DNA of 64,000 nucleotides from Chlorella sorokiniana. Taxonomy: Eukaryota > Chlorophyta > Trebouxiophyceae > Chlorellales > Chlorellaceae. The stretch lies in NCBI GenBank assembly GCA_025917655.1, contig CP084615.1:620001-684000 (forward strand). The letters are read 5' to 3'. Positions within the stretch are counted from its first letter, which is position 1, and every line of letters begins with the position of its first letter. A model generated the notes under the pieces. That model did not search any database, had not been told where the DNA came from, and saw only the letters and a program-made list of their open reading frames with translations. Shown piece after piece: positions 11,892-53,800 of the stretch. The translations under genes were made by a program, and so were the position numbers.

Positions 11892-14800
11892 TCACGCTGC
11901 CGCCTCCTCCGACTGATCCAGCTTGAGGTCCGTTGCCACCATCTTGGCTGCACCCAAGGAAGGACACACGGATATCTGTCCTGAAAGCAGAACCAACGGG
12001 GGAGACTGCGAGCGCTGCGGCAGCACCAAAAGCCGCAGACACTGGAGGCTTGTGCCCCACCTGCGATGGGATGGTAGTTGGGCCTGTGCACCAGGAACGT
12101 GTCCAGCGCCAGCTGCCTGGCAGCTGCACTCTTGCTGTTGCTCAGCGCGCGGTACAGCGGGCGCAGGAACCTGCGGGGGGGCGGGCAGCGGCAACGCTCT
12201 GTGCGGCGGCCTCGCGGCACAGACAGGCGGCCACAGTCAGGCGGCCACAGTCAGGCGCAAGACAACGGGTGCCTCGAAGCAGCGGCGGTGCCCTTGGCGG
12301 CGCCTCACTTCATGCGGCCCTGCTCCTTCAGGAACGCCTGAGCCTTAGGAAGGATCACGTCATCGCCTGCACCCAGAGCCACACACGCCAGCAGCGCGCC
12401 TCTGCGACCGAGTGCCGCACACAACCTGGCAGCAGGCACCAGGGGTGGCGGCGCACGCAACGCATGCCCCGCCGCGCTGCTGCTGCCTGCTGCGACACCC
12501 GGCTGCAAGCGAGGCAGGGAGCTGGATTGCAGGTGGGCAGGCTGGGCAGGCTGCGGAGTGAAGCGGCTCACCTGCATTGATGCACAGCTGGTACCAGGAG
12601 GATCGGATCTCGGAGTTGTGGCGGCTGTCCAGGCCGTACAGCTGGTCCATCCTGCAGCAGTACAGGCAGGACAGACGCATGTGCAGCGCAGCGGTCCCAG
12701 GATGGGCCAGCGGCCGCACTGAGCTGCCTGAGGCGGGCGGCACGCCGCACACAGAACTCAAAACTCATAATGGTGGGGCTGCGATGCGACGTGGGCAACG
12801 CTGCGCTCACTTGCGCGTGACGCTGGGGTGCAGCGGCTGCATTGCCCGAAGCTCAGCCAGCTTGTCCAGGAAAGCCACCAGCTGCAGGTGGGTCCATGAG
12901 GGAGGGGCGGGGGAAGGGGCGTCCGCAGTGGGGGCGCACAGGGATGCAGGGGCTTACCTTCGGCAGCAGCGCGGCCGGAACCGCTGCTTTGCATCCCCTG
13001 GCCGCCCAGCAGTCTGCCCTGGGGAGCAGCGTGAGCTGCCAGGGCCCTGAAAATATAGCCGGCGTCGTCGCCTTCAAGCAAGCGCGATGGCAATCAAGCC
13101 AGGGGCTCGCCTGGGTGGAGCTCCAGTCCTTGATGTCGTCGGGAGGCGCCTGCCGGGCCGTCGCTGCCGATGCCCATCACATCGCAGGTGTGCCACCTGC
13201 TCGGGCGTTCAGAGAGAAGTCGCAGGAGCAGCAACGTGCACTTCGCTTTCTCGCACATGCACCTTTCCAGGCAGCATGCTGTGGTGCAGCTGCTTGCTAG
13301 CGCCCATCCCGACCAAAAGCCAGCTTCTCGTACCCTCCTCTCCCCTCCAGCCCTTGAGCAGAATTGCTGCTCACCGCTTGGCCAGCTCGAACGACTGCTG
13401 TCCCAAGCTGTCGTCGTATTCATTCTTCACTGGAGGCATGCCTGCAAAGAGCAGTGTGCGATCAATGTGCAAGTCGAGAGGCTGAGGGGGATCGTGGAAG
13501 TGACAGCAAGAAGATGGAGCGATGGCAGCCCGCCTGCCATCATAGCTGCCTGCGTGCCTCGCGCAGCCACCCCAGCCCAACGCCGCCCACCTGGCTTGTA
13601 AAGCCAAGTCTCCCAGTCAATGTCCTGGATGCGCTCATCATCCTGCACGCAAGCCGTGTGTGTGTGTGTGTGTGTGGGCGGGGGGGGGAGGGCGCGGGGG
13701 GCAGGCAAACGCAGTTTCGACATGCAGGGCAGGTGAGGCGCTGCACGTGCAGAACAGCGCTGGCTTCGCTTGCAGACCAAACCACGGCGCGGGCTGGGGC
13801 AGCACCTTGAAGTGGTCGCAGAAGAAAGCACGGAAGTCTTCCGAGGTCAGCGGCTGCGCCTGGAAGCGCTGGATGTACGCGCGGAAGAAGGGCTCGAAGG
13901 CGGCGGCGCCCCCACCAGCTCTTGCAGGTAGTGAATGAAGCTGAAGCCCTTCTCGTCTGACGCCTCAGAGGGGGAGGGGAGTGTGAGGCGCAAGGCAGGT
14001 CGGTGCAGTGCTGGGATGCGGGCATGCCGCAAACTTCATTCAGCCTCATTGGTTGGGAGGCAGTTCAGGCTTGGGGGGCATGCACCAGCGAGGCGAAGGC
14101 AGCGGGAGGAGGCTTCAGCGTGTGCATCGCTCACTCACAAGGGATGGAGGAGAAGGCGTCGTCAGGGTCAACGCCTCCTGCGGAGCAGGCGGGGAGCGGG
14201 GGAGGCGGCCGGACGCAGCGGTCAGAACCATGACTTGCTATATTAACAATGAGCGCTTGCCGGCGCTCTTGCGCTGCAGGGCTGCGGTGCGCCGCCGCAG
14301 ACCTGACAGGTCCGGCACGAGGCGGGTGAAGGGGTGCTCCTCGCTGCCAAACTGCTTGCGGATCGTGTCTTGCATCTTCAGCCAGCCGCCCGCTGCCTGG
14401 AACTGGTACCGCTGCAGCAGCGGCGGCAGCGGCGGTTGCTTTCATGCCAAGGCCCGCCACCCACCCGCCAGGTTGGGCACCAGCGCGGTGTAGGCGTGGC
14501 CCTCCCAAACTGCTTCACAGCAGCCTGGAGCTCCAGCCAGCCCATGGAGGCCTGCAGCTGGTACATCTGCGGGGCCGCAGCGACGGGTGGCCTTCGTGCC
14601 GCTGGGCAGCCAGCCGCTCTGCCCCAAGTGTTACCAGTACCGGCCTTTTCTGCTCATTCACAAGCTGACAATCCAACGGCTGGCCCCGGCACCCCGACCT
14701 CTGCTGCTCACTCACAAGCTGACAATCCAACGGCTGGCCCCACCTTCTCGCCGTACAGGCGGCCCAGGATCTTGCGCTCCAGGTACACCGTGAAGCCTTC

Positions 14801-17129
14801 GTTGAGCCAGAAGTGCTCCCAGGTGGCGTTGGTGACCAGGTTGCCTGCGGGGCGGCGGCGGCGGCGGCGGCGCACCCGCAGGCAGGGCACTGCAGCGTCA
14901 GGTGCAGGGCTGGCTCTTGCAAGGTCGACCCTGGGTTGCGGTGCCCTGCACCGCCAGGCCCTGCTGCTCGCTGGGAGCCAAGGCCGCTGCACTCCTTGCG
15001 GCTGCCAGCTGGCGCCCCCGGGCCATTGCACTTGCGCACCCGTCCAGCTGCCTACCTGTCCAGCTGTGTGCGATTTCATGTGCCACCACGTTCGCCAGGG
15101 AGCGGTCTCCAGCCAGCAGCGTGGGCTGCAAGATGGGGGACGTGCAGCAGGAAGGTGCCAAAATCACAACCAGGCGAGCGCCACACACTTGCCCATGTGA
15201 AAAAGACGCACAGGCTTTTGCAGTTTCTGCCGCGCGCTGCTGCTCACCGTAACAAAGGTTAGGCAGCTGCAGGGAGCGGAGGAAGAGGACAAAGAGAAGT
15301 CAGGGGCAGCAGGAGAGGGGAGGGGTGTGGGTATGGGTGGGGTGGGGTGGGGGCGCGTGGGGCCGGGGCCTGCTGCAGCCAACCACCAAGCAGCAGGTGC
15401 AGAAACGGCTCATGGCGGTGCAACAGCGGTACAGCAGCAGCAGCCGGCGGCCTCACGGGTTTTCCATGCCGCCGTAGCAGAAGCTGGGGGCAGCAGCAGC
15501 AGGTCGTAGCGGCCCCACTGGTAGGGTCCTGCCAGCTCCTCGGCAGCTTCCAGAAACTTTTGGGTTTCTGGGGGACGTGAGCAGGATTGTGAGGGGCAAG
15601 GTGAAGAAAGGAGGGCTCAGAAGCAGTAGTTGGGTGGATGCAAGCAGACAGCATCCACCAAATGCGTGGTCGGGCAGGGAGGCCTGAAACCTTCCCCCAC
15701 CACAGCCAGGCTGCGCACCAAGGCTGGGATCTGAAACAAGCTAATGGAGCGATGAAGCTCATGCACTGCATGCGCACCGCCACCGCCCCGTCCCGGCACA
15801 CACCCGCAAACTCGTATTCCCCTGCCTCCACCATCTCCGGCTCGCTCCACACGGCAGAGATGGGTCCCAGCGGGCGGCTCTCCAGGTTGCCGACCGCCAG
15901 GGCCAGCAGGTAGGAGGGGATGGGCATCTTCTGGCGGAAGCGGAACACCTTGGTGCCTGCCCGAGAGCGCGTGGCGGCATGCTTCAGCTCTGCAGCAGCG
16001 TGGCGGCGGCAGAGGCTGGCTTGCAGCTCGCTGTGGCAGTGGCAGCAGCGAGGGCCTCCTTTGCAGGCGCCGGCACGGGCGCTGCAGCAAGCGGAAGGGC
16101 AGCGGTGACGGGCGCGCCTGCTCCCTCCACGCCGTCGTCTTCAGGCACAGCGCTCATGAGGGCCCGCAGCGCTGCTGGCACCCGTACCGCCGCGGCGTAG
16201 GTGAACTTGGCGCCGGGGGTGTCCTGGCAGGGCAGGATGGAGCTGCGGGCGGGGGAGGAGCGGTTGCGAGGGTGGCTCCTTCTTTACTGAGCGCAAGGCG
16301 CACGGGAGGGCGGCTCCGGGCCAGGCAGCCGGGCAGCAGGGGCCCTCACCGCGCGTGGATGGCCTGGCACTGAGTGAACAGGTAGGGGTGCTTCTTGCCA
16401 GCAGTCTGCTCTGACGGCAACCTGCGGCAGGGCACACCAGCTCGCAAACATCTGGGTCCGCGGCTGCTGTGCAGTTTGTGCCGAGAGATTGCGCCGCTGC
16501 CGTATGCCAGCCTGCCCTCACCATTGCACCGCGCTGGCCTCCTGAGAGGCTGCAAAATCGATGCCCACCGCCACGCTGTCCCCAGCCTTCAACCCCGGCG
16601 GCAGCTTCACAGTCAGCTTACTGCCCAGCGCCTTGTGCGGCTCCGCCAGGCTGAACTCGGCAGCTGCGGGTGAGGAGGCAGCCGTGCAGACTCCGGGTCA
16701 ACACAATGCAAGGTGAGCAAGCGCGTGCTGCAATGGCGGCTGAACAGCTGCGAGCCAAAGGACCGGGAAAAGCAAGGCTGGGCGCAGGTGCTGCGGCGGC
16801 CCCCACCCGCCCCATTGACGGTGACGGCGCTGACGGCGACGTCGCGCGTGTCCAGAGCAAGCTCCGAAGCGCCGTCTGCCCGCACTGTCACAGTGTGATC
16901 CACGTGGCCGCTGAGCACCTTGGTGTCAAAGTCAACGTCCAGCTCTGCGCGTGTGGGGGCAGGGGATGGAATCAGGCAGCAGGCACGGGCGCCGGCTTGT
17001 GCCGCAGAGAGGAGACTGTTAAGGAAACAAGGGTGCGCTCTCACCAATGTCGCTGTGCGTAATGGCCGCCTCCTGAGGGTTGGCCTGCGAGCTGTGCTCC
17101 CGAAAGATGCGCGAGCTGCGTGCCGGCAT
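11892..17129 (-). CDS. LTA4H: Leukotriene A4 hydrolase-type M1 aminopeptidase
   Basis: Zinc metallopeptidase of family M1 (LTA4H/aminopeptidase B branch), probably cytosolic; in algae expected to act as an aminopeptidase. Seen on the minus strand: [42 protein letters not shown], the [20 protein letters not shown] block, substrate motif YGGMENP near 15440, zinc site [12 protein letters not shown] near 15070, [18 protein letters not shown] near 14800 (second zinc Glu), [11 protein letters not shown] near 14150, and the C-terminal [29 protein letters not shown] plus [12 protein letters not shown]. Start ATG 17129 and stop 11892-11894. More than ten introns. Frame breaks in the GGMEN exon and in one duplicated exon fit one missing C or G. 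Two alternative copies of one exon lie at 14303-14411 and 14465-14566. Confidence 0.92.
13656..13692 (-). repeat. CA/C-rich intronic microsatellite (sense = minus)
   Basis: A (GT)n run followed by G tract on the plus strand, so C then (CA)n on the coding strand of the aminopeptidase gene, inside an intron. Confidence 0.8.
14303..14411 (-). other. LTA4H-type gene: alternative exon copy B
   Basis: Reads [37 protein letters not shown] with intact frame. It begins after CTGCTGCAG in phase 0 and ends at TCAG|GTCTGC in phase 1, the same phases as copy A, so either copy could be spliced to the [11 protein letters not shown] exon but using both in series would shift the frame. Closest to the canonical family sequence. 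Confidence 0.8.
14465..14566 (-). other. LTA4H-type gene: alternative exon copy A
   Basis: Reads [19 protein letters not shown] then, after one apparent missing [14 protein letters not shown]. It aligns with the helical segment that follows GEK in this family. It starts after CCCCGCAG in phase 0 and ends at GCGG|GTGGGT in phase 1 (once the missing base is allowed). It is the more divergent of the two copies, lacking the usual [11 protein letters not shown] core. Confidence 0.75.
14658..14741 (-). repeat. 30-bp direct repeat in LTA4H-type intron
   Basis: A perfect 30-bp copy at 14658-14687 and 14712-14741 lies in the 177-bp intron before exon copy A. The second copy abuts the donor after the GEK codons, so the start of the intron has been duplicated 54 bp downstream. 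Confidence 0.85.
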
Positions 17130-36971: not shown

Positions 36972-38884
36972 ATGACGCACCACACGCTCTCGGCTGTGGC
37001 TCTGGCGCTCGCCTGCTGCCTAGTCACCGTGCACGCGCAGGCCCCCTACACGGGTAAGTCGTTGGAGGGGAGTCAACTCTTGCTCGCACGCTTCTAGATC
37101 AGGTCAGGGTATGAAGTGCCTGCCCCTGGAAGGGGGTAAGTCTTTAGGGTTGGGGGTCTTTTCTTCCGGCTGCCGATGCTGCCCAGCATATTTACCACAC
37201 CCAAGACTCACAAAACTCGTCCCGAGACGATCAGGCGGCCACAGCCGCTGCTGCACCCCGCAAGCCCAGCAGCTGCTGGAAGGGAGCTGGCGGATGCTGA
37301 CGCATGCGCTACGTGCAGCTGGGGCGTGAAATGCATGCTGCGGCTGAAGTCATCTGGAACAAATTGCTGGCCATCTCACGCGTCCCGCGCCCTCACCTCC
37401 CGCCTGCAGGCCCGGAGAGCTTCATCAACACCTTTGATGCCTTTGGCCCCGGCCTCGAGCTGCCGGGCGCCACCATCGGCCTCGTCAGCGCGGGCCAAGT
37501 GTACGGTGCCAACGTGGCCGGCACGTCTGCTGTGCTGGTGCGTGACTGGCCTGCAGGGCTGCCGGCATCTGCCAGCCGCGCTGCTTGACCCCAGGCTTGC
37601 CTGAGCCAAGCCGTGCCTGCCGTGCAACGCGATCCCTGCTCCAGGCGCGCTGCGGTTCGCTTGCCACCCGTATGTGACCGTTGCAGATCACGCTCCAGCC
37701 GTGCACCATCCTCCAGCCCCACACCCACCCTCACTCGGAGTTTTCCTTCACCGTGTACGGTGCGCCCTTGCGCCGCCGCCCAGCTGCCGCCCGACACCGC
37801 AGCCGCCGGTGTGCTAGTCAACGCAAGGGCAGCGCCCCGCGCCGCCCCACCCCACCCCCTACCTCCCCACCTTGATTGACCGTCAACCTCCATCTTGGCT
37901 GCTCCTCTGCTGGCTGTCTTTGCAGGCACCGTGGTCCACTCAACGCCCTACAACAACCTGACCCTCTTCAACCTCACCGCCAACACCGGCGAGGCCCCCG
38001 CCCGCGGCTTCGCCATCTTCCCCGCAAGCAAGTGGTTCTGGTGGCGGCTCGGACCTGTTCCGGCCCTGGCCCTTGTCCCTCTTGCCGCTCTGGGGTGGGC
38101 TGCAAAGCTCGGCTGCTCCCTGCAGTCGTAAAATGCCTGCGCTTTCCCTGCTGCAGGCCAGCTGCACGTCACCTACAACCCCACCTGTGAGCCGGCCCAG
38201 GTGCTGTCAGTGTTCAACACCCCCTACCCCAGCCTCAACTTCTACCCGTATGCCCAGGTGGGCTGCTGTTAAACAGAAAGTATTTGCCGGCAGGTGCCAG
38301 CGCCATGCATGATGCAGCCGCAATGACACTGGTGCTGCGGCGTGGCAACTCTGGGCAGACAAGTCTTATGACCACCATATCCACACCCCCACGTTTCCTT
38401 GTACGCCAAGACCCCGACAGCTTCCCCCAACGCATCTCATCACGCCGCTGCCACTTTGGTAGCGGAACTGCTGGCAGCCTGTGGCACTAGCTGAGCTTGC
38501 CTGCTGCCCACCCCTGCTGCACCCCCGCCCCCGCCTCCTTCTGCAGAGCTTCCTGCCCGAGGAAGTGACCGAGTCCTACTTCAAGGGAAAGCTGGACAAC
38601 AGCCACCTTGCTGAGCCTGTGGGCACCGCTGAACTGGGTAAGGCTCCAGAGCTCAGCGCCGCGATGCGCTGAAGGCAGCGTGACCTGCTTGAAGCCGCCC
38701 GCTCGCCCACCTCGCCACTGCTATTGCCATTATCCGCTTGTTTTGAGGGCATACTCTTGCCGCAAGCATGCACCTGTTGTGCTGCACACGTGCAGAGGGC
38801 TGCAAGTGCCGCGGCGACAGCAGCGACCGCGGCGATAGGAGCGAAGACGAGCACAAAGACCACAAGGACCGCAAGTTCTTCTAA
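36972..38884 (+). CDS. Secreted germin-like cupin 1
   Basis: Extracellular germin/spherulin-like cupin. Seen: signal peptide THHTLSAVALALACCLVTVHAQ from ATG 36972; GPESFINTFDAFGPGLELPG; GLVSAGQVYGANVAGTSAVL; then the metal motif CTILQPHTHPHSEFSFTVYG, matching H-x-H-x3-E-x6-G of cupin motif 1; TVVHSTPYNNLTLFNLTA; GFAIFPASQLHVTYN, matching motif 2 P-x-G-x2-H-x3-N with Ser in place of Gly; CEPAQVLSVFNTPYPSLNFY; SFLPEEVTESYFKGKLD; and a Cys/Asp/Lys-rich tail ending DRKFF at TAA 38882-38884. Seven or so exons. The intron after PA starts with GCAAGT (38028), the only donor that keeps frame, so it is a GC-AG intron. Tandem duplicate of the next gene. Wall or stress role is inference. Confidence 0.85.
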
Positions 38885-39879: not shown

Positions 39880-41669
39880 ATGGTTCGCATCGCAGTGCCT
39901 GTGTCGGCCCTGGCTCTCTTCTGCTGCCTGACCATCGCGGATGCCCAGACAGTCTACAAAGGTGAGTGTAAGGAGTCAGTTAAAGATGGCACAAGCGCCT
40001 GTCCTTTGTTCCGGCGCTTTACCTTTGCCATCTCTGTCGGAGCGTGCTTTGTGCCCACAAACCACGTGGCACCGCCCATTTTGTCTTTCACGACACCTGA
40101 ACATGCTTTACCTCCGGTATCACGCGTTTAAAGGCCGTCCGCGAGGTTTCGTCACCTCACCGCCCGCCTGACAAGTGCCTGCTGGCCTGGTAGATTCTAA
40201 TTTCCAAGGGTCTGACCTCTTTGTGGCGGAACCCAAACCCCTTCTCTTCCAGGCAACTCCAGCTTCATCAACAGCTTTGACACTGTTGGCAACGTGGTGC
40301 AGCTGCCTGGGGCCAACCTCAGCCTGGTCACGGCAGGCGAGGTGTATGGGTTGAACATAGCCGGCCAGTCGGCAGTGCTGGTGAGCTCGTGTGCATGCTT
40401 GCTGCAGCATGCCACATGCCCCAAGCGCACACTCACCTTGTGAGCTTGGTTGTGTCCCTCTGGCCCCCATCTAAAGTGCGTCTCTGTTAAAATGGAGCTG
40501 AAACGTTGCTATGCCCCCTTCAGCTCGCCCCCACATCCCCCTGCCACACCCGCTGCCCGCAGATCAACCTGGCTCCTTGCACCATCCTCCAGCCCCACAC
40601 CCACCCGCACTCGGAGTTTGCCTTCACCGTGTACGGTGCGCCCTTGCCGCTGCTCGGGCGTGCCATGCAGCCATCATTGGCTGCCTGAGCAGCCCGAGTC
40701 GGTCGCTTGAGCCATCCGCCAACCAGCGTCTGGCCGATATCCGCCAACCAGCTTCATCCCTGTCTCTGCTCCTCAGGCACCGTGATGCATTCAACCCCTT
40801 ACAACAACCTGACCCTCTTCAACCTCACCGCCAACAATGGCGAGGCAGCGACTCGCGGCTTCGGCGTCTTCCCTTCAAGTGAGACCTCTCCAGGGAGCGC
40901 CACGGAACCTGCCTCCACCAGTGAAGCCCGCCTGCGGCAGCTTATGCAGCTGTCTGAGCGCCTCTTTTAACGTCTGCGAGTGCTTGAGGCCAGTTTGAGC
41001 CCAGCGCTGGTGGCATGCCCGGTTTCTCTTCTTGTAGCCAAGTCCAAAGCAGATGCCTCCTTGCTCACTCCCCCGCGCCCCCTTCCCATCCCATGCAGAC
41101 CAGCTGCACGTCACCTACAACCCCACCTGTGAGCCGGCCCAGGTGCTGTCTGTCTTCAACACCCCCTACCCCAACCTCAACTTCTACCCGTATGCTGAGG
41201 TGGGCTGCTGCTGCCACCACCGCTGTGGTGCTTGCCCCAGCCATGCTGGCCCAGGCACGCCCACTTGCGGGGGAGGCTGGGTTGCGGCGTACCAGCCGTT
41301 GAGGTCTCCCTCACTGCGCGCGTTCTCCGGCCAGCGGCTGACCGTGCTTGGCCGCCGCCGTGCCCGCAGAGCTTCCTGCCCAAGGAAGTCATCGGGGCAT
41401 TCTTCAAGGGCGAGCTGGACGCCGCTGACCTGGCCAAGCCCCTTGGCACAGCTGAGCTGGGTGAGGCCATGCTGCCGCCCCCTGCCACCTGCGCAGCAGC
41501 TTCCCGCTTGAAAGTGCACCGGGCTCGCGCTCATGCAGCGTGGCGTCCACGTTCTGCTAAGCCTGCCCCGCGCAATCGTGGTCACTGCGCTGTCCCCTGC
41601 CTGGTGCCCGCTGCAGTGGGTTGCAAGTGCCCCAGCGGCGGCAAGAACAGGCGTCGCCGCCGGCTCTAG
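39880..41669 (+). CDS. Secreted germin-like cupin 2
   Basis: Tandem paralogue of cupin 1 with the same exon order. Seen: signal peptide MVRIAVPVSALALFCCLTI..ADAQ from ATG 39880; GNSSFINSFDTVGNVVQLPG; SLVTAGEVYGLNIAGQSAVL; CTILQPHTHPHSEFAFTVYG with the three metal ligands His, His, Glu; TVMHSTPYNNLTLFNLTA; GFGVFPSNQLHVTYN with the fourth His and Asn in place of the usual Gly; CEPAQVLSVFNTPYPNLNFY; SFLPKEVIGAFFKGELD; tail GCKCPSGGKNRRRRRL, strongly basic where cupin 1 is mixed-charge. Here the intron matching the GC-AG intron of cupin 1 has a normal GTGAGA donor (about 40880). Stop TAG 41667-41669. The two proteins are very similar in the core, so the duplication is fairly recent or under strong constraint. 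Confidence 0.86.
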
Positions 41670-50899: not shown

Positions 50900-53800
50900 C
50901 TATGCATCGAGCTGCTGCTGCACGTGCGCCAGGAAGTCGGCCACCCGCGCAGCTGTCGCCGTGCTGCCCGGGATAATGTGGCCGCCGCTGTGGCGGATAA
51001 CAAACCGCTGCGGGGAACAGTGGGAGGCAGCAATCATGGCCGGTCAAAGAGGGATAATGGGGAACAGCGCTGAGAGTGAGGTCACGTCAGGGCGCGTTGG
51101 TTGCTTGATGGGGCAGCAGGCGGTTCCTGCAATGGCCGGCGCAGCCCAGGCCAGCACACCTGAGTGGGTTCAAAGCACTCTGCCAGCGCCGCGCTTTCCT
51201 CGGCGCTGACCTGGCGGTCGGCCGGACCTGCAAGAGGGCAGGCCAAGGCGGCCGCTCAGCACCACCAACACCGCCAAAAGCTGGTACCTGTAGCACAGCG
51301 CGCAGCAGCTCCGTTGCCCGGCCGCCGCACAGCTGCCTCGCCTGCGCTGCCGCCATAGATGTGCAGCGTGGGCAGCGCCGCGCCGCCCACCGCGGCCGCC
51401 TCGTCCAGCAGCTCCTGGTGGGCCGGCAGCGGCGAGCGGTAGCCGGAGCAAAAGATGGCGAAGCGCGGGGGGCTGTGGCCTGCGTCGTCGCGGCTCGCCG
51501 CACCGCCCCCGCAGCTTCTGCCGCTGCTGCAGCCACTGCTGCGCCGCCAGCACGGCTGCCACGGCGGCGCCCTGGCTGAACCCCAGCACGCCGTCAAACG
51601 GGCCCTGCTCGGTAAGCACCTGCTCCAGCTCCCGCTGCGACTCCTCCCACCCCGCCGTCTGCGCTTGGAGCTGCCACTCGTCGGCATACTCTGGCACGCC
51701 GCCGCCGCCGCAGGCATGCGCAGGCCCCTGCTGCAGCGCAGCGTGCTGCTCCGGGGTCAGCAGCCAGGCGCGCCGCGGCGGGCCCGCCTGCTTGCAACCC
51801 CCTTGCTGACAGCGCAGGGGTGCTGCTGCGCTCGGCTCGCCGCCTGGCAGCTGCTGCACCAGGCCTGAAGGCTGCTGCGCGCAGTCGCCTCGTCCCAGAG
51901 GGTCCCGTTGCTGCGCCGCAGCGCCGGCGGCAGCAGGCTGCTGCTCGGCCTCGCCCCCGTCGCCGGCTGCTTGGTCCAGGCGGGCAGCTCGTGAGGCCCA
52001 TCCACAAACACAAACTCAGCCATGTGCCGCAGCCGCTTGCGCAGGCCGTGCGTGCGTCCCTGCTGGCGGTGTTCAGCGGCGGATGAGAGGGCGGCAGGCT
52101 CATTTCTGATGCCAGGCCCAAGCGGCAGAGTTCCAGCGTGCTCAGCGCCCTTTGCATGCAGTGCGCACCTCAAAGTTGCGAGCCGACTGCCGGAAGCCGT
52201 GCAGGCACACGATGCGCAGGCGCCTGCCGCCCGCGGCGGCCGCCGCCCGCTGCCTCCGCCGCTTTGCGCACAGCTCGCACGTCAGCTGCTGCCTTGCTGC
52301 GCCCTCGCCTGGCTGCTGCTGGGCCTGCTCTCGCTGCTGCTGCTCCTGCTGCTGCTGCTGCCCGTCCTCAGGCGGCGCACGCGCTGCGCAGGCTTCACAC
52401 ACCAGCACCAGCATGCGGCACTGGCCGCAGCGGCGGCGCTGGCTGTAGTCGCCCCAAGGCGCGCTGCACATCACGCACCGCCCAACGACTGCGAGAGGCG
52501 GCGATTTTGGGGGTTTGAGTAGGTGGCTGGCCAAAGTGTTGAATTGAGAAGGCGGCTGGCCAAAGTGTTGGGTGTGCGAGTGGAGTTGCAGTTGGATCAT
52601 CAGGCGTGGCAGGCGTGGAACAGGCACTCATTGCATGAAACCAGGGCTGCAAGATGCAAGGAACCTCATGCCTGGCGGCGAGGGACCCACCGGTGCCGCT
52701 GCCGCTGTCCACGCCGCCGCGCTCGTCAAACACAAAGTTGGAGCCGCGGAAGAAGCCGCCGCCGGGAAGGCCTCCAGGTAGCGCTGGATGCCGCCTGGGG
52801 AGCGGTGTCGGGGGCAAGTTTGAACACAAACGGGAGAATCAACAAGGGGAAACGAGAAGCACTTGATCAGACGGGTCCAGGCGGACCGCGTGATCAGTCA
52901 GGGTCTCCAGCTGCTGTGTCTGGCTGCAGCGCGCACAGCGTGCCAGCAGTGCTGCTCGCCCTCCCGCCTCGCCCCGCCGCACCCCTCAGCTGCACCACGT
53001 CCTGGAAGCTGGGGCCCAGCGACATGAGGTAGGCAGAAGCGCGCTCACACCTGCATTGGAATGCGTTTACGATGGTTTCTCCATGTACCAGTTGCCCGCA
53101 GCCAAGGCGCCACTTTCAGCACGGACACATGCGCGGCACCCACGCTGCCACGCATGTGTCCTTCATGCTCCCTCACACAGTGCGCGTACCCACGCCCGCA
53201 CCCCCCCCGCCCAGCAGCTCACCGCACGCCGCCCGTGCAGTACATGAGTATGCGGCGGTTGGCCAGGCGGTGCTGGTTGGCCTCCAGCCAGGCGGGGGTG
53301 TCGGAGAAGCAGCGCACCTCGGGGCCAGCACCGACACGCCGGGCTGCAGCGGCGGAGGACGGAGAGAACAGGCCAAGGGAAGGTAAAGCAGAGAAGGGGG
53401 AGGGAGTGTCGGCGGCTGTTACCCAGCGTCAGACAGTCAGTCGAGAGGGCAGCGAGCGCTGCCTTGGCACGCGCGCGTTTCCGCTGAACACCCTGGCAGA
53501 GACGGGCATGACTGGAGCGCTGTCGCGCGCGGCAGCACCGCACCGCTCCCGCACCGGCTCAAAGCGCCCGATGCGCGACTCGTAAAAGTTCCGCGTGTCG
53601 ATGAGCACCGTCTCCTTGGCGGCCGCCTGCTTGACGGCAGCGCCGCCGTGCTCGGCTGCTTGCCGGTCGCTGCGTTGCGCCTCGGCAGCCGCCTGCTCCA
53701 GCAGAGCGTGGAACTGTGCTGGTTCCAGGTGGGGCGCCCCCGCAGGCAGCAGCGCTCCATCGGCGCTGCCCGGCATCCAGTCAGCTGCGCCCAGGCTCAC

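Follow-up and report, generated by a model that had tools for sequence, protein, structure and literature searches.

Candidate mutually exclusive exons in an algal gene for an LTA4H-type M1 aminopeptidase

The window analysed here, the whole stretch of 64 kb, contains on its minus strand a gene for an LTA4H-type M1 aminopeptidase. One segment of the protein is encoded twice in this gene, by adjacent exon copies that are referred to as A and B. The gene and the features around the two copies, given in the direction of transcription, are as follows.

11893..17129, minus strand: LTA4H-type M1 aminopeptidase gene, about 20 exons in a hand-built model
14744..14844, minus strand: E9, the upstream shared exon, which encodes the zinc-ligand Glu; 33 residues, ending in phase 0
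14465..14566, minus strand: exon copy B, 102 nt as assembled; 21 residues, a frame break and 13 residues in another frame
14412..14464, minus strand: intron between B and A, 53 nt
14303..14411, minus strand: exon copy A, 109 nt; 36 residues plus a split Gly codon, phase 0 to 1, no stop
14139..14177, minus strand: E11, the downstream shared exon; 13 residues plus a split Tyr codon, entered in phase 1

The conceptual protein, in which frame breaks were written as X, aligned with frog LTA4H (4gaa) at 628 bits and with human LTA4H at about 600 bits. It contains the GGMEN motif, which is located behind a frame break in E6, and the HEIAH-18-E zinc site, both of which it has in common with the human (1hs6) and frog enzymes. 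Equivalents of the residues that we take to be Asp375 and Tyr383 of human LTA4H are common to these proteins as well, whereas the residue that we take to be human Tyr378 is Phe in the algal aminopeptidase; the numbering and the roles of the motifs are our assumption. Pieces of 98 residues with A and 96 residues with B scored 68.6 and 68.1 bits, respectively, against the M1 peptidase family PF01433, and both pass its Pfam gathering score of 27.7. Full gene models, hand-built and with X at the breaks, scored 715 (A) and 715.8 (B) bits against TIGR02411, the LTA4H equivalog, which is below the curated cut-off of 761.7 bits. We therefore filed the gene as an LTA4H-type M1 aminopeptidase and make no claim of epoxide hydrolase activity.

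Both A and B correspond to the segment that we take to be approximately residues 337-371 of human LTA4H. Each copy is preceded by AG and followed by GT, and their local alignment scored 88, whereas 2000 shuffles averaged 17.8 and never exceeded 40. These borders and this score bear out the original prediction, made from the DNA letters, that two adjacent minus-strand segments encode the same LTA4H region. The end of the upstream exon at 14744 also agreed with that prediction; the downstream neighbour that it had placed near 14185 exists, but starts at 14177. Two adjacent homologous exons for one protein segment are what would be expected of a mutually exclusive pair. In tblastn searches of A and B against the whole window, each copy was the best non-self match of the other, the next best matches had E values of 0.27 (A) and 0.048 (B, on the other strand), and no third copy was seen.

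Two further repeats were observed in the window. A 48-nt direct repeat (14640-14687 and 14694-14741, 92% identical, spacing 54) sits in the intron just upstream of B, starting beside the E9 donor, and looks like a recent tandem duplication. Elsewhere on the plus strand, the neighbouring stretches 37301-38669 and 40216-41666 have nearly identical translations, such as QLHVTYNPTCEPAQVLSVFNTPYP at 38141-38245 and 41098-41187; from their sequences, these stretches are probably a tandem gene duplication.

The splice signals of the two copies differ in strength. The donor of A, GTCTGC, is weak (3.55 bits); only 3 of the 16 other donors measured were lower, and 13.7% of 211 other GTs in the gene region matched or exceeded it. 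The acceptor of A is strong (11.07 bits), with 0.9% of 335 other AGs scoring as high or higher. B has a good donor (7.15 bits, equalled or exceeded by 2.8% of the other GTs in the gene region) and a fair acceptor (7.34 bits, equalled or exceeded by 3.0% of the other AGs). All 16 donors measured besides those of A and B are GT, in a set that leaves out E15 and E18; the end of E15 at 13110 (minus strand), placed from continuity with frog LTA4H, has an apparent GC donor (CAG/GCGAGC).

Of 16 introns measured in the gene, none is shorter than the 53-nt intron between B and A; the other 15 range from 100 to 236 nt. Control of exon choice by RNA structure was considered and rejected: duplexes among the E9-B, B-A and A-E11 introns did not surpass dinucleotide shuffles, of which 140, 89 and 61, respectively, were as strong or stronger (200 shuffles each). 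A stem just inside the A donor was likewise dismissed as a signal, its 70-nt stretch folding at -26.8 against a shuffle mean of -26.8. Rfam and tRNA scans of the 64-kb window were empty. Because no pairing between introns rose above shuffles, we propose that short distance, helped by loss of frame, would be the cause of exclusion. Both devices are described in human genes: in the portion of the study available to us, mutually exclusive exons are explained by a distance of less than 50 nt between donor and branch point or by a frame shift, and 57 of 629 clusters are potentially steric (PMC5740500).

The reading frame of the pair depends on how B is read. After KQFG its frame is broken, and 13 further residues follow in another frame up to the GT donor. 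Taken literally, the frame is kept by A alone, lost by B alone, kept by B followed by A and lost when neither copy is present. The original prediction had both copies running from phase 0 to phase 1. This is correct for A, which is compatible with E9 and E11; B has 102 rather than 103 nt and a broken frame, and would fit its neighbours only if the assembly misses one base. The same prediction held that using both copies would shift the frame. As assembled it does not, and the argument would be true only if B misses that base; it thus depends on the break in B being an assembly error.

Similar breaks are present in E6, E12 and E15, and a further one in an unrelated FSH1 gene, which is why we consider an assembly indel a plausible cause of the break in B. 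Around the breaks in E6 and E12 the alignment with frog LTA4H is close, and that in E15 falls in a gapped, variable and poorly aligned stretch. The rate is three breaks in 1508 coding nt, a count that leaves out A, B and E5. At this rate the probability of at least one break in 102 nt is about 0.18, and by arithmetic it falls to about 0.13 without the E15 break. The frame also changes in E5 (15950-16110, minus strand), whose first frame ends in a stop. This exon was left out of the rate because it could hide an intron; an indel is the other possible cause of the change. Relative to animal LTA4H, this exon carries an Ala/Pro-rich insertion. The coding frames of the exons other than E5 contain no in-frame stop.

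For neighbouring genes, 20 open frames were scanned against Pfam. In the FSH1 serine hydrolase gene (51352-51679, minus strand), profile positions 78-129 and 127-168 were matched in different frames only 25 nt apart, which is too close for an intron. With 20.4 bits, the second part narrowly misses the cut-off of 21; the split points to an indel error in the assembly. There was a weak suspicion of another break in a GNAT-like gene (E 0.014), and one suspected in a 5'-nucleotidase gene found no support, its second frame having no Pfam match. That the breaks come with little substitution damage suggests sequencing or assembly indels.

Both copies fit the LTA4H family. Within the gene context, A scored 138.6 and B 139.4 bits against TIGR02411; the bare exons scored 11.6 and 13.7 bits. 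Pairwise alignment to human LTA4H gave 84 for A and 68 for B, which carries X there. A family profile was also built from the best 80 of 152 relatives in a bacterial and archaeal genome scan together with the human sequence. It gave 110.5 bits for A, 115.9 for B, 121.3 for the human segment and 89.4 with no exon; the prokaryotic homologues serve for this profile only and give no information on the occurrence of the exon pair among algae. Relatives were absent from viral contigs in two scans, and phage tblastn found none. On these scores, the earlier description of B as canonical and A as diverged lacks support: the two are equal against TIGR02411 and A is nearer to human LTA4H, though the family profile prefers B. 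Sequence comparison does not clearly mark A as the one that diverged.

Comparison of A with B revealed an excess of synonymous change. Over the aligned codons pS was 0.58 and pN 0.26 (dS about 1.13, dN about 0.31), giving a dN/dS of about 0.28, a value based on 33 codons only and with dS near saturation. The 33 differences in 99 aligned nt were distributed as 12, 6 and 15 over codon positions 1, 2 and 3. Neutral evolution was simulated from a single starting copy (A) with indels absent. At 0.5 substitutions per site, stops arose in 70.5% of the simulated sequences and the score of A was kept in 0 of 400, and at 0.15 substitutions per site it was kept in 3.5%. In a codon-usage scan whose training set excluded A, this copy scored 12.4 and ranked within the top 80 of 1277 segments.

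The differences between the copies include positions that we take to be human residues 361 (Pro in A, Ala in B), 362 (Phe, Tyr), 364 (Arg, Ala) and 368 (Asp, Asn). A also has two extra residues relative to B. In our alignment, frog LTA4H has Leu, Asn and Asn at the equivalents of 362, 364 and 368, indicating that variation at these positions occurs in a real enzyme. His360, Phe362, Lys364 and Val367 are among the flexible residues chosen at bottlenecks of the LTA4H tunnel, according to the part of that study available to us (PMC6828983). Switching exons would thus probably tune peptide preference and leave the zinc site untouched.

Four other explanations of the locus were weighed. A could be the exon in constitutive use and B a duplicate that died recently, its frame break being genuine. 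Read literally, the frame is indeed kept by A alone and lost by B alone, and A is the nearer of the two to human LTA4H (84 against 68). However, past its break B remains a full conserved match with a good donor, its TIGR02411 score equals that of A, and exons indispensable to a functional enzyme, the GGMEN exon among them, show breaks of the same sort, so that we regard a dead B as unlikely. The weak donor of A would also suit a rare or poison element, most likely A itself, with transcripts containing both copies or neither being directed to nonsense-mediated decay and no second useful protein being made. Skipping both copies does lose the frame, as would joining both if B has 103 nt, but a pure poison exon would need neither the intact frame of A nor its fit to the family, and this explanation appears quite doubtful to us.

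The remaining two explanations concern the assembly and the gene as a whole. Misassembly of, or recombination between, two paralogous genes could have placed B of one beside A of the other, and both the frame breaks, which suggest an imperfect assembly, and the unusually short intron between the copies could be taken that way. In the stretch read, however, every remaining exon of the gene model occurs once, and A and B, with one-third of their aligned nucleotides different, are too diverged to drive homologous joining; duplication of a short exon is simpler, and a chimaera is improbable. That the whole gene is a pseudogene would account for the breaks in E6, B, E12 and E15 and for the first frame of E5, which runs into a stop at its frame change. 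Against this stand coding frames that, besides E5, are without an in-frame stop, the 16 other measured donors, all of them GT, the 628 bits to frog LTA4H and the similar break in the unrelated FSH1 gene; we consider a pseudogene highly improbable.

The explanation that we favour, and hold to be rather probable, is that A and B arose by tandem duplication and both function as alternative exons, with one or the other spliced between E9 and E11. The original proposal of a mutually exclusive pair remains the best reading of two selected-looking copies with splice borders at either end and a 53-nt intron between them; its frame argument stands only if B contains an assembly error. Counting against the pair are the broken frame of B as assembled, the literal in-frame joining of B to A, the weak A donor, intron pairing that did not rise above shuffles, the rather small probability of a chance break in B and the unsupported suspicion of a break in the 5'-nucleotidase gene. 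The sequence shows the duplication of the exon; according to the proposed mechanism, either A or B would be joined to the shared neighbours. Splicing from B to A would be disfavoured because 53 nt presumably leaves too little room to set a branch point far enough from the donor, and transcripts with both copies or neither would lose the frame provided that B really measures 103 nt in the organism. The choice between A and B would then alter residues at the bottleneck of the substrate tunnel and so tune peptide preference. We put forward more tentatively, as a possibility that we would not yet expect to hold, that a unicellular alga makes two forms of this aminopeptidase by a steric short-intron switch, with Arg and Phe at the bottleneck of one form and Ala and Tyr at that of the other, and thereby regulates substrate preference. 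If transcripts confirm the pair, it would represent an either-or exon choice that retunes the substrate tunnel of an enzyme in a presumably unicellular green lineage.

In the portions of the open-licence PMC literature available to us, we found no report of a duplicated exon for the 337-371 region in LTA4H, nor this arrangement under mutually exclusive exons for LTA4H or Chlorella or under algal tandem exon duplication. Human clusters of mutually exclusive exons share both devices proposed here, a short distance from donor to branch point and lengths not divisible by three, and were validated by junction reads, whereas the algal pair is deduced from genomic sequence alone (PMC5740500, as far as the accessible text goes). 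A closer parallel in lineage is cyn23 of Volvox carteri, in which exons 4 and 5, of 106 nt each, are mutually exclusive and give isoforms that differ at 13 residues; the available part of that report includes a section on verifying mutually exclusive exons (PMC4378016). As is proposed for the gene described here, two neighbouring exons belonging to one length class swap a single protein segment in a green alga. The Volvox gene encodes a different enzyme, its two exons are equal in length and it has transcript evidence, in contrast to the unequal lengths, the frame break in B and the purely sequence-based case of the LTA4H-type gene. To judge from what is accessible of the Volvox report, this kind of exon pair is already known, and the pair in the LTA4H-type gene would be a new member of it.
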